A stretch of 64,000 nt of DNA from Fodinibius salipaludis. Its GTDB lineage: Bacteria; Bacteroidota; Rhodothermia; Balneolales; Balneolaceae. The notes under the pieces are model-generated. The model saw nothing but the letters and a program-made list of their open reading frames with translations, had not been told where the DNA came from and did no database searches. Made by a program: the position numbers and the translations under genes. Below, one piece after another: positions 17,888-32,797 of the stretch. The first letter of the stretch is position 1. The number at the start of each line of letters is the position of its first letter. The stretch covers positions 62,001 to 126,000 of the forward strand of contig NZ_NSKE01000004.1 of the NCBI RefSeq assembly GCF_002287075.1, given 5' to 3'.

Positions 17888-17909
17888 TTTAGATGACCGT
17901 TAACAATCT

Positions 17910-17934
17910 GGCTGCGTACCTCTGGTGCGCAGCC
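17910..17934 (-). repeat. REP-like hairpin downstream of clpB
   Basis: GGCTGCGTACC (17910-17920), loop TCT, GGTGCGCAGCC (17924-17934). The minus strand carries the core GCACCAGAGGTACG. It is the first of three repeats left of the RAYT gene and lies 22 bases after the clpB stop, so it could also act as its 3' hairpin. Confidence 0.8.
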
Positions 17935-17972
17935 TTTTAAATTTACTGATTGTTGCTATGGTATAAACCTAC

Positions 17973-18001
17973 CGTCCAGCACCAGAAGTACGGGACGAGA
18001 T
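17973..18001 (+). repeat. REP-like hairpin, tail-bearing copy
   Basis: CGTCCAGCACCAGAAGTACG followed by GGACGAGAT. The plus strand carries the core (with one G-to-A change) and ends in the tail ACGAGAT that is shared with copies at 18672, 18732 and 39691. It is in opposite orientation to its neighbours at 17910 and 18033. Confidence 0.8.
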
Positions 18002-18032
18002 AGAAAATTATACAGATTAACTGCCTCTCTCT

Positions 18033-18057
18033 GGTAGCGTACCTCTGGTGCGCTACC
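18033..18057 (-). repeat. REP-like hairpin adjacent to RAYT 3' end
   Basis: GGTAGCGTACC (18033-18043), loop TCT, GGTGCGCTACC (18047-18057). It has the same core as the 17910 copy but different outer arms (GGTAGC/GCTACC instead of GGCTGC/GCAGCC), still fully paired. It ends four bases before the RAYT stop. Confidence 0.8.
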
Positions 18058-18061
18058 CTCC

Positions 18062-18595
18062 TCAACGACGAAAACAAGTAATTTCTAAGCAAGTTTCTTG
18101 ATCAAGATAATTGCAAATCGATGAGTATTCCCATTTCAACATATCATCAACGTAACCTGCTATAACCGGATTTTTATGAATGTACTCAATTTTTTGAAGC
18201 ATCATTTTGTCGCCAACTATCTGCTTCGGATGGAATCCGTTTTGCCAAAATTGGTATTCAGACCTATTAGAGATAGAATCCTTTACAACAAAACTTTGTA
18301 ACAGGTCTTGTTTTGCAGTTTTCTTAAGATAGTCTATGATTTCTCTCGCTGTATAGGATTTAAACAGTCTGACTTTTTTAGATAAATTTTCTCCTGAAGC
18401 GATAAAATGAATATGATCCTTCATAATGACATATGCATAAATAGCAACTTGACGCTCTTTTTGTAGAAACATAAATCCATCAAGGATCATCCGGGCAACT
18501 TCATGTATATCAAATACTGGTACCCAACCTACGACTGAAGAAGTCATAAAGTAGGGGTACCGCTTTTCATATATTTTATAGCGACTTCTTCCCAT
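18062..18595 (-). CDS. REP-associated tyrosine transposase (RAYT, IS200-like Y1 family)
   Basis: RAYTs are single-copy, domesticated relatives of IS200/IS605 transposases that process REP hairpins. The 177-residue protein has the HUH metal motif HIHF at 61-64 within YVIMKDHIHFIASG, the FKSYTAREI helix near 78-86, and the YIHKNPVIAGYV segment near 145 typical of REP-associated members. The nuclease Tyr is expected in the helix region around 110-120, but I cannot assign it surely. No terminal inverted repeats, target duplication or partner tnpB is seen. Six hairpin repeats flank it at both sides, which is the usual RAYT setting. The frame is intact. Confidence 0.92.
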   Translation of the reverse strand: MGRSRYKIYEKRYPYFMTSSVVGWVPVFDIHEVARMILDGFMFLQKERQVAIYAYVIMKDHIHFIASGENLSKKVRLFKSYTAREIIDYLKKTAKQDLLQSFVVKDSISNRSEYQFWQNGFHPKQIVGDKMMLQKIEYIHKNPVIAGYVDDMLKWEYSSICNYLDQETCLEITCFRR

Positions 18596-18671
18596 TCGGT
18601 CTTATCTAATTATATATTTATAAGTAAGACCCGAATAATAGAATTATCTTACAAAATTATTTCATGAAATA

Positions 18672-18700
18672 CGTCCCGAACCAGAGGTACGGGACGAGAT
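18672..18700 (+). repeat. REP-like hairpin upstream of RAYT, perfect copy
   Basis: CGTCCCG-AACC-AGA-GGTA-CGGGACG (18672-18696) plus tail AGAT. The outer seven bases pair perfectly, and the loop holds ACCAGAGGTACG. It lies 77 bases upstream of the RAYT start, and is the best-formed tail-bearing copy. Confidence 0.85.
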
Positions 18701-18731
18701 CAAAGATTACATATTCATTTGCGCCAATTCG

Positions 18732-18759
18732 GTTCCGCCCCGGAGGTACGGCACGAGAT
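18732..18759 (+). repeat. REP-like hairpin, variant copy
   Basis: GTTCCGCCCCGGAGGTACGG followed by CACGAGAT. It keeps CCGGAGGTACGG and the ACGAGAT tail with slightly eroded arms. It is in the same orientation as the copy at 18672. Confidence 0.7.
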
Positions 18760-18812
18760 TTAGAGACAAGGTAGAATACGGAACAGAACGAGAGAAATTA
18801 ATAATTCAAGCT

Positions 18813-18837
18813 GGCTGCGTACCTCAGATTTGTAGCC
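18813..18837 (-). repeat. REP-like hairpin, degenerate copy
   Basis: GGCTGCGTACCTC then AGATTTGTAGCC. The left arm equals that of the 17910 copy, but the right half has drifted, so pairing is partial. It lies just after the stop of the amidase gene (minus strand, ending at 18860). Confidence 0.6.
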
Positions 18838-18859
18838 TTTTATATCTCAGCATAGAAAC

Positions 18860-29539: not shown

Positions 29540-29896
29540 CTCCCGAAAATGTTAAAGCTTTTGAAGCGCGGGAAGCTTATTCAAATACAACAACATCTCA
29601 TGCTGAACTTGTCGTGTCTCGACCATTCGGGATTTCAGTATCTGTCAGACCCTGAAACGAGTTCAGGGTGACACGTGATGTGCATTATCACTTCTTTACA
29701 TTTACTTAGTATACAGTAATGAGACGGGCACACCGAGTCATTACAAGTTTTCTAAACTCTCCTATGTACGTAATGATAAAAGACATCACCATATAATATT
29801 GTTCATGATTTCTTTATCTTCGTTTGCTATAATCTGCATTGCTAAATAATGGGAGTTTAAGTCTCCTCTAACAAATCGAACTTTTTACAGAAATCG
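29540..29896. other. Intergenic region between the carboxypeptidase and CDF genes
   Basis: This 357-base gap holds the dispersed palindromic element at 29598-29674 and otherwise AT-rich sequence with no convincing gene. A TATAAT-like stretch (GCTATAAT near 29828) could be the CDF promoter. No metal-responsive operator could be assigned. Confidence 0.5.
29598..29674. repeat. Dispersed palindromic element, full-length copy
   Basis: A 77-base imperfect inverted repeat whose arms are CATGCTGAACTTG at the left and GAAACGAGTTCAGGGTGACAC on the right. It is related to 32062-32120 and to the half copy at 21641. Only non-coding positions are occupied. It carries no gene and looks like a MITE- or REP-like dispersed element. 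Confidence 0.7.
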
Positions 29897-31418: not shown

Positions 31419-31897
31419 AATCAATAACTCACTTTCTGCTAATTTTACTATCCGGCTGCTTACTGTTTTTTGGATGTAGTTCTGAGTCGAATTCTTCGAA
31501 CGAATCCGACTCCAAAAAAGAAGTCGTTCTCGGAAAAATAGCCCTCGACAACGCCTGGGCACGTCCCGGTTCACAACAAGGCAAAAGCGCTGCATACCTG
31601 CGCATCTCCAACGGCACCGCCTCCACAGATACGCTACTTTCATTTAGCAGTAATGCCGCCGAAAGCGTCGAACTTCACAAATCCATTGAAAATGATGACG
31701 GCACTACCAGCATGCAACCCGCTGATGAGCAAGTTATTCCATCCGGAGAAAAGCTTCATATTGAACCCGGCGGGCTCCACCTTATGCTTACCAACTTAAA
31801 AAGAGATATGGCCGTAGGCGACTCCCTCCAAATTACCTTAGAATTTGCCCGTGCCGGTACCGTGACCACCACCGCCCCGGTACAGATACAGAATTAA
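31415..31897 (+). CDS. PCu(A)C-type periplasmic copper chaperone lipoprotein, 160 aa
   Basis: These DUF461 proteins carry Cu(I) for CuA assembly together with SCO1. A lipoprotein signal ends LLFGC (Cys about 20). The copper motif H(M)-X10-M-X21-HxM can be traced exactly: His in VELHK, Met after ten residues in TTSMQP, then 21 residues to HLM. The Met that normally follows the first His is a Lys (HK), so one of the four ligands is missing. The start overlaps the SCO1 stop by four bases. A fluoride riboswitch begins about 90 bases after its stop. Confidence 0.9.
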   Translation: MKSITHFLLILLSGCLLFFGCSSESNSSNESDSKKEVVLGKIALDNAWARPGSQQGKSAAYLRISNGTASTDTLLSFSSNAAESVELHKSIENDDGTTSMQPADEQVIPSGEKLHIEPGGLHLMLTNLKRDMAVGDSLQITLEFARAGTVTTTAPVQIQN

Positions 31898-31988
31898 AAT
31901 ACCTACCCAAACCAGCAGCTGAACTTGCCCTCTGATGCGTAGAAATCCCAAGGGATGGCATCACTGTAATACATTACATAAATTTGCC

Positions 31989-32046
31989 TTGGCGATGGAG
32001 TTCGCCTTCAACCGCTCCGGCCACCATCGTAGCTGATGACTCCTGT
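31989..32046 (+). ncRNA. Fluoride riboswitch (crcB motif)
   Basis: The sequence from about 31989 shows the crcB-motif order: GGCGATG, then GGAGT, then TCGCC (stem P1 GGCGA/TCGCC), CAACCGCT, a variable hairpin closed by GCT/AGC, and CTGATGACTCCT. GGAGT (31997-32001) can pair with ACTCC (32039-32043), the second helix of this class. It binds fluoride with Mg2+ and controls fluoride defence genes; the next gene, 112 bases on, is the CrcB/Fluc channel. The family match is by eye, but several separate conserved blocks agree. Confidence 0.88.
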
Positions 32047-32061
32047 TAACATAGAAGTTCC

Positions 32062-32120
32062 GTGTCACCCTGAACTTGTTTCAAGGTCTGGCAGATGCTG
32101 AAACAAGCTCAGCATGACAC
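32062..32120. repeat. Dispersed palindromic element between the riboswitch and crcB
   Basis: A 59-base imperfect palindrome beginning GTGTCACCCTGAACTTGTTT and ending AACAAGCTCAGCATGACAC. It belongs to the same family as 29598-29674. It sits inside the leader of the crcB transcript, exactly where the riboswitch expression platform should be, so it may have replaced or extended that platform. Confidence 0.75.
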
Positions 32121-32157
32121 CTTACTTAATAAGAATTAATCTTACAGGAGTTATCAC

Positions 32158-32529
32158 ATGCTACAATCCATATTAGCAGTCGGCGCCGGCGGATTCTTTG
32201 GAAGCATTTTCCGCTACCTTATTAGTCATTATATAACCATCAGCGCCCAATCCACTTTTCCCTTCGGTACGCTCACCGTTAATCTTGCGGGTTCCTTTTT
32301 GATCGGAATCATTATTGCGTCTGCGCTCGAAGGAAATCTAAACAAATCCATGCGCCTTCTTTTAGCCACCGGTTTCTGCGGTGGATTTACAACCTTCTCT
32401 TCCTTTTCTTACGAATTCTTTTCTCTCCTGCAGCACGAACAAACCGGCTATGCCTTTTTGTACGCCGTGGCCAGCTTTGTATTGGGATTAGCTTTTGTTT
32501 GGCTGGGCTTTTCGCTGGTAAAAGTCTAA
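32158..32529 (+). CDS. crcB: Fluoride exporter CrcB/Fluc, 123 aa
   Basis: Fluc channels are small dimeric membrane channels that let fluoride out of the cell. The 123-residue protein has four helices and the family marks TVNLAGSFLIGI (GxxNxxGSF type) and GFCGGFTTFSSFSYE, which holds the pore Phe and Thr/Ser residues. The ATG at 32158 has a good ribosome site (CAGGAG, 12 bases upstream), unlike most genes here. The fluoride riboswitch upstream shows how it is regulated. It is single-copy here rather than the paired heterodimer form. Confidence 0.96.
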   Translation: MLQSILAVGAGGFFGSIFRYLISHYITISAQSTFPFGTLTVNLAGSFLIGIIIASALEGNLNKSMRLLLATGFCGGFTTFSSFSYEFFSLLQHEQTGYAFLYAVASFVLGLAFVWLGFSLVKV

Positions 32530-32797
32530 TAAAAAGAACAAAGGCACGATCGGACGTTTGTTCTATACATTGCTAACAGTAATGATATGAGAAAATTGAA
32601 ACGAGACTCAACCTCCATCCATCGACTAAAAAAACACTTACCCCTGTAAATAGCGCCAATGTCCAATCTTGCTGTTATCAACCGCCTCAAAACCAAATAA
32701 AGTCAACCCGAAAAAAATAACATTGTTTTAAAACAACTTTGGTTTTCATTTTTTACTTTAAACGCGCAGCAAAAATACACAGTCAAAAGAATAAATT

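Follow-up and report, generated by a model that had tools for sequence, protein, structure and literature searches.

A putative fluoride riboswitch precedes crcB in Fodinibius salipaludis, and a 59-nt palindrome lies between the two. An earlier note on this DNA suggested that the palindrome may have become the switch or may uncouple it from the gene. Does it do either and, if not, how could the aptamer act on crcB? We addressed the question computationally in a 64,000-nt stretch of contig NZ_NSKE01000004.1 (positions 62,001 to 126,000; hereafter the window) and in related genomes. The reading that we favour, with a probability of about 0.82, is that of a translational-ON fluoride riboswitch in which the palindrome, a REP dimer, would be a nearly neutral spacer within a loop.

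The crcB leader

The riboswitch is, by its covariance-model match, a genuine one, as the earlier note had recognized: cmscan placed RF01734 at 31982..32052 (+) with 52.4 bits against a gathering threshold of 34 (E 1.2e-11). The 5′ strand of the aptamer pseudoknot, GGAGU, lies at 31997..32001 (+) within this match; the pairing of the two pseudoknot strands is established for the fluoride aptamer. Directly downstream is a fluoride-resistance gene, crcB (32158..32529, +), encoding a 123-aa member of the fluoride exporter family (PF02537, 106.7 bits). The upstream neighbours are genes for the copper chaperones SCO1 and PCuAC. A second aptamer match in this genome, L002, scored 24 bits, less than the cut-off, and was set aside, no switch architecture having been found there.

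The TAnnTTTG sequence is the −7 promoter type of Bacteroidota. An exact instance, TAAATTTG (31979..31986, +), stands 12 nt before stem P1 of the aptamer. This is a motif match only; 20 of 51 leaders of the phylum had an exact TAnnTTTG in the 32 nt preceding P1, as compared to 1.1% of 1000 control windows. Based on the position of this promoter-like site, the aptamer probably opens the transcript. A separate promoter between 32120 and 32158, which the earlier note had considered, would drive crcB from beyond the repeat and leave the riboswitch as a relic. We regard this as highly improbable: consensus scans of the + strand between the repeat and crcB revealed neither a sigma-70-type nor a TAnnTTTG-type site, the best match to the latter in the 40 nt before crcB having 2 mismatches, the exact motif stands directly before the aptamer, and no evidence in favour of such a promoter was found.

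Two further features of the leader described earlier, the lack of a terminator after the aptamer and the dispersed, mobile-type palindrome, held up. Thus, the region 31700-32700 contained 0 terminator-like sites. The palindrome (GTGTCA...TGACAC; 32062..32120) consists of two inverted units with their heads outward, at 32062-32089 (+) and 32093-32120 (-), the arrangement that defines a REPIN. The region 32055-32125 folded as a single hairpin of -28.2 kcal/mol (z -4.65), with 0 of 200 shuffles as stable.

The predicted switch

The 3′ pseudoknot strand of the aptamer, GAUGACUCCUGU, is complementary to ACAGGAGUUAUC just upstream of the crcB AUG, a feature that the earlier note overlooked. In the predicted ligand-free fold, this complementarity is part of an 18-bp helix over the start site. 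Specifically, the minimum free energy (MFE) fold of 31975-32200 (-77.4 kcal/mol, z -6.28, 0/200 shuffles as stable) pairs 32029-32046 with 32144-32164. The 5′ strand of this switching helix (32029..32046, +) includes the 3′ pseudoknot strand ACUCC (32039-32043), here the anti-Shine-Dalgarno (anti-SD) sequence. The 3′ strand (32144..32164, +) covers the SD sequence AGGAG (32146-32150, within ACAGGAGUUAUCA), the nucleotides leading up to the AUG, and GCUAC in codons 1-3. In this fold, the palindrome pairs with itself and merely fills the loop of the helix.

The duplex of aptamer strand and start region was computed at -23.3 kcal/mol. For 39 other start regions in the window, taken from mechanical ORF calls, the mean was -8.3 and the strongest value -16.1 kcal/mol. 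An SD-like site was found in just 4 of these 39 genes; concealment of the start region may thus be more important than that of the SD sequence itself. The outer pairs of the helix, GUAGC/GCUAC (32029-32033 and 32160-32164), extend it into codons 1-3; at 32029-32033 this species has GUAGC and its sister species GGAGC, and the same base is a mismatch in aptamer stem P3.

Pseudoknots are beyond ViennaRNA, and we therefore mimicked the bound state by barring the pseudoknot strands from pairing. With the strands held in this way, the probability that the SD sequence is unpaired rose from 0.00 to 0.59. Eleven leaders were folded in all, and SD exposure rose clearly in 10 of them but not in a degraded leader, L042 (0.39 to 0.40). 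The energy gap between the two states was 15.6 kcal/mol in this species, and a gap of that size would need kinetic, co-transcriptional control.

These calculations suggest the following mechanism. Without fluoride, the 3′ pseudoknot strand would quit the aptamer and pair with the ribosome-binding site and start region of crcB. With fluoride, the pseudoknot would retain the strand, the start region would be released, and CrcB would be made. As in a translational riboswitch, an aptamer strand sequesters the start in the free state predicted here, and no intrinsic terminator was found. On this folding model the switch is very probably of the translational type, and we infer that it responds to fluoride by exchanging the two states in cells.

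Leaders in related genomes

At E≤0.001, the aptamer was matched in 13 of the 58 relatives, 17 of the 128 order genomes and 54 of the 394 phylum genomes, with 10, 11 and 45, respectively, scoring above the cut-off. The set of 51 leaders was assembled by dropping L063, L081, L082, L083, L084 and L096 (no clear or near start), L095 (duplicate), L064 (no start), and the below-cut-off matches L002, L043, L044, L047, L048 and L049; two matches in G192 and the weak matches of the phylum scan lay outside it, and L042 and L100 were retained despite sub-cut-off scores. Start codons were set mechanically as the first ATG of the longest frame, except in L038 and L036 (an ATC), where they were set by hand; for 13 leaders of the order, the start was that of crcB or another first long frame.

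Across the 51 leaders, duplexes between each aptamer strand and its own start region averaged -12.37 kcal/mol, as compared to -9.04 (sd 0.34) when the partners were permuted, and 0 of 20,000 permutations reached the matched value. When each of 17 families was represented by a single leader, the mean excess was -3.1 kcal/mol, with p<0.05 in 200 of 200 draws. Individually, just 30 of the 51 leaders beat shuffles of their own start regions at p≤0.05. Within the order, the advantage of matched over swapped pairs was modest (p 0.01), because the core is conserved in all. Nine of the 13 order leaders formed a stronger duplex than did all 39 control start regions; the remainder were L033 (1 control as strong), L042 (2), L040 (3) and L041 (10). 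Several leaders carry GCC-type pseudoknot strands and in these the start-side strand covaries (GCCUGAUUA with UAAUCAGG, GCCUACAAAU with AUUUGUAGGC), as expected for a real pairing. Convincing start-site pairing was absent in L051, L070, L072, L057, L060 and L093, and the leaders of some relatives (L071, L088, L090, L097) have hairpins with U-runs. Because matched pairs in the 51 leaders beat re-paired ones, start-site hiding is, as judged from these sequence comparisons, widespread in the phylum and independent of any repeat.

Some individual leaders had features of their own. In L050 and L092, the strand that complements the aptamer includes the start codon. In L036 (G054), the crcB-like gene seems to start with a non-ATG codon after a strong SD sequence, which may be a sequencing error. 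L045 is a second fluoride riboswitch in one genome (G013), with start-site pairing of -22.0 kcal/mol; it precedes a 412-aa ORF that by eye resembles a membrane antiporter.

The distance from GAUGACU to the start had a median of 49 nt (quartiles 46-57) and was 123 nt here and 132 nt in the sister species. The earlier note had asked whether relatives have this spacing without the repeat. For the most part they do not: three same-genus leaders lacking the repeat (L033, L037, L041) have their start 46-50 nt past GAUGACU. One leader, L042, comes near, with a distance of 110 nt without the crcB-type REP. Start-site pairing is retained in L033 and L037 and is weaker in L041 (-10.2 to -11.7). In L037 the SD core is gone (CAGCAG), yet the pairing runs over a longer stretch.

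History of the repeat and its predicted effect on the switch

Among six same-genus leaders, the repeat was present only in this genome (G000) and that of the sister species (G008), 16 nt after CTCCTG in both. The gene order CDF, SCO1, PCuAC, crcB is identical in the two, and their CrcB proteins are 88% identical, as compared to 63-76% for the remaining pairs of the genus; the branching at that point is left open by the tree. Most likely, a REP dimer was inserted once, in the common ancestor of the two species.

One alternative is that the inserted repeat is now part of the switch, either as a terminator or pausing hairpin or as a competitor of the start-site helix. Its stable hairpin is sited between aptamer and crcB, as this would require, and the sister species has retained it in a form more conserved (53 of 64 positions identical) than the linkers (26/47) or the fourfold sites of four genes (182/322). 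We initially took the last comparison (p 7e-5) to indicate selection on the crcB repeat and withdrew this after a comparison covering 30 of the 44 unit loci of G008. Five other REP sites proved common to the two genomes; in three of them, 23-26 of the 27 bases of the unit are identical, and the other two are composed differently. The conservation is thus not special to crcB. The exact fold is not kept either, being one long hairpin here and two hairpins in the sister species. No U-run follows the repeat and no terminator-like site was detected. Moreover, the start-hiding helix is complete without the repeat and is predicted in the repeat-less relatives L033, L037, L035, L038, L034 and L046. 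With the in silico deletion described next, which changed almost nothing here, these results make it unlikely that the repeat became the switch: the predicted switching helix joins the aptamer directly to the crcB start.

Deleting the repeat in silico gave an energy gap of 15.7 kcal/mol and a held-state SD exposure of 0.54, nearly the values obtained with the repeat. Replacing it with 150 dinucleotide-shuffled versions yielded a gap of 12.7 kcal/mol (sd 1.8) and an exposure of 0.30 (sd 0.14), with 0 of 150 equalling the real repeat on either measure, and an A59 tract gave 13.9 and 0.19. Since the shuffled repeats and the A59 tract all do worse, the self-contained hairpin appears to be a good spacer. 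In the sister species, the repeat was predicted to be less neutral, with a gap of 7.5 kcal/mol with it and 13.3 without, and an SD exposure of 0.10 with it and 0.21 without.

A second alternative is that the repeat breaks the link between aptamer and gene, leaving crcB constitutive or silent. The leader is indeed long for the phylum, SD exposure in the sister species is predicted to be low in both states (0.00, 0.10), and the long leader L042 has a degraded aptamer and a duplex of just -7.4, as would be expected after decay. Against this, the aptamer and start-site pairs are intact here (52.4 bits, 13 contiguous pairs) and in the sister species (50.5 bits, 11 pairs), although the linkers have diverged, and in this species the energy gap and the exposure of the start site hardly change when the repeat is removed. 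L042 is also not a repeat-driven case, because no copy of the crcB REP was seen in its leader. We therefore consider uncoupling improbable, to about the same degree as a role of the repeat in switching. L042 itself (in G003) resembles a fluoride riboswitch in decay: its aptamer scores 31.1 bits, its start-site pairing is weak and the ORF upstream is a different one.

The helix in relatives without the repeat and the near-unchanged balance upon deletion lead us to conclude that both proposals, the repeat as switch and the repeat as uncoupler, are probably wrong. In the translational-ON reading, the REP dimer would form a fold of its own within the loop closed by the switching helix, and would be a nearly neutral spacer that adds 59 nt between aptamer and start. 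As counted from 31986, the switching helix enters the MFE fold at a transcript length of 163 nt with the repeat and 104 nt without. It is speculation that this later formation is of benefit, perhaps by giving slightly more time for sensing.

REP class and dispersal

Allowing ≤3 mismatches, we found 44 REP units in this genome using a narrow pattern and 69 using a wider one; the reversed patterns gave 0. The 12 genomes of the genus contained from 0 to 57 units each (narrow pattern). Among 30 unit loci, 22 lay between codirectional genes, 4 between convergent and 3 between divergent genes, and 1 within an ORF, according to crude ORF calls. Rfam matches beside the units of this genome numbered 0 at the 26 loci scanned. 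The window holds a further copy at 29633-29675, with no counterpart in the matching G008 stretch.

The common form of the unit is TGTC followed by ATCCTGAA-CTTGT-TTCAGGAT; the left unit of the crcB dimer has one stem mismatch. Head (CGTC or TGTC), stem (8-9 bp) and loop (4-5 nt) agree with those of the CGTC superfamily and, on these sequence features, we class the palindrome as a CGTC-like REP dimer. In the accessible part of PMC3733652, TGTC is a listed variant of the CGTC head, and our units share the 8-bp stem, mostly with an A-T start, and the 5-nt loop. They differ in that some start with A-C and in their tail, which is CT rather than the usual CCA; most, not all, tails of the superfamily fit CCA. 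The same text includes Bacteroidetes in the superfamily and describes heterodimers as frequent in CGTC-2 and -3.

For GTAG REPs, RAYTs are the presumed mobilisers. We considered a RAYT as the mobiliser here and rejected it: the genome has five RAYT-type (Y1_Tnp) genes, of which 0 of 5 carry the REP unit of the crcB palindrome (≤6 mismatches, ~3.2 kb each), and their flanks hold palindromes of other kinds. One such gene lies in the window (18293-18499, -) and has its own, different palindromes (GTACCTCTGGTGCG type), with repeats at 17904-18845. As far as its accessible text goes, PMC3733652 likewise reports no association of CGTC repeats with transposase genes and describes them as apparently without a dedicated one. 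CGTC REPs are said to be most abundant in alphaproteobacteria.

GIY-YIG nuclease genes beside REP hairpins

Pairs of REP units of the crcB type, ~420-550 nt apart, were found to enclose a gene for a GIY-YIG nuclease of ~100 aa (PF01541, E 5e-16). Such REP-enclosed genes occur at G000 C37:58905-59356 (L111, L265), at G000 C12:322882-323334 (L101, L304; with internal stops) and at G008 C3:35372-35830 (L222, L267). One element, L222/L223 in G008 and L101/L103 in G000, has the same neighbours in both species and is turned round between them, its inside aligning in the direction opposite to that of the flanks, consistent with an inversion between REPs or a separate insertion.

GIY-YIG protein matches were found in 30 of 58 relatives (99 matches in total), from which 70 loci were taken and 68 scored by scanning within 250 nt for GTC followed by a hairpin of at least 8 bp. 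Of loci with ≥45% identity (n=37), 17 had hairpins on both sides, 7 on one side and 13 on neither; at <45% identity (n=31), the corresponding counts were 2 on both sides and 0 on one. Controls, taken from 43 other loci, comprised 430 random gene-sized spans (both sides 0, one side 11) and 74 ORFs of 90-200 aa (both 0, one 5); the random spans were unmatched for intergenic position, making the ORFs and the distant homologues the fairer controls. A further 38 GIY-YIG loci, drawn from a search in which 132 of 296 genomes matched and comprising 18 new ones and 20 stretches chosen from its list, had hairpins on both sides in 13 cases and on one side in 11; 27 of the 38 were from other families and 10 of these had hairpins on both sides. 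The hairpin variants differ between GIY-YIG genes, some having a CCA tail.

A GIY-YIG match of at least 100 bits was present in 10 of 15 relatives with ≥10 units and in 4 of 43 others (Fisher p 4e-5 over the 58 relatives, relatedness ignored). Against a link, G004, G007, G009, G010 and G013 have units and no match of at least 100 bits, and many homologues, including 13 of the 37 closest, lack hairpins. Orientation is inconsistent, too: in this genus the heads face the gene, in others they mostly point away from it.

The small GIY-YIG genes are thus associated with CGTC-type REP hairpins in many genomes of the phylum, and the flanking counts versus the controls suggest a mobiliser for a REP class reported without one. 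Tentatively, and at somewhat less than even odds, the small stand-alone nuclease would mobilise CGTC-like REPs much as RAYTs would GTAG REPs. As part of this reading, the autonomous element would be a GIY-YIG gene flanked on either side by hairpin REPs, and the dispersed dimers would be its gene-less offspring. No paper linking GIY-YIG with REPs was among the literature matches listed, and "GIY" has 0 occurrences in the accessible text of PMC3733652.

Discussion

The predicted mechanism is of a known kind. Translational fluoride riboswitches from Pseudomonas syringae and Burkholderia pseudomallei appear as controls in PMC13273304, in the available part of which an aptamer-plus-hairpin covariation motif is described. 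The present switch resembles these in having an aptamer, no terminator, and an aptamer strand common to a downstream hairpin. In contrast to that type as presented there, the loop here holds a REP dimer, and the hidden part is the start region, SD-like sites being rare in this genome. The pseudoknot sequence would swap between aptamer and expression platform as in the transcriptional fluoride riboswitch of Bacillus cereus (PMC11077080, in the portion available); there the exchange builds a terminator, whereas here it would hide the start site.

The dimer resembles REPINs as the available parts of PMC3116915 and PMC8049555 describe them, being two short inverted hairpins, dispersed and mostly intergenic. 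It differs from the RAYT-linked REPINs of those papers in that none of the five RAYT-type genes carries the REP. No report of a REP inside a riboswitch was among the literature matches listed. We consider the insert and the phylum-wide start-site pairing to be a variant of the known mechanism, and the connection between REPs and GIY-YIG genes to be the more novel lead.

At this locus, a mobile element occurs naturally within the expression platform of a riboswitch, where it is predicted to be tolerated because it folds on itself within the loop of the switching helix. Start-site hiding would be a common form of fluoride switch in the phylum, seen here in a genome with few SD-like sites. Finally, the GIY-YIG genes are a testable candidate for the spread of CGTC REPs: if that reading is true, the question of their mobiliser, left open in the accessible text of PMC3733652, would become directly testable.
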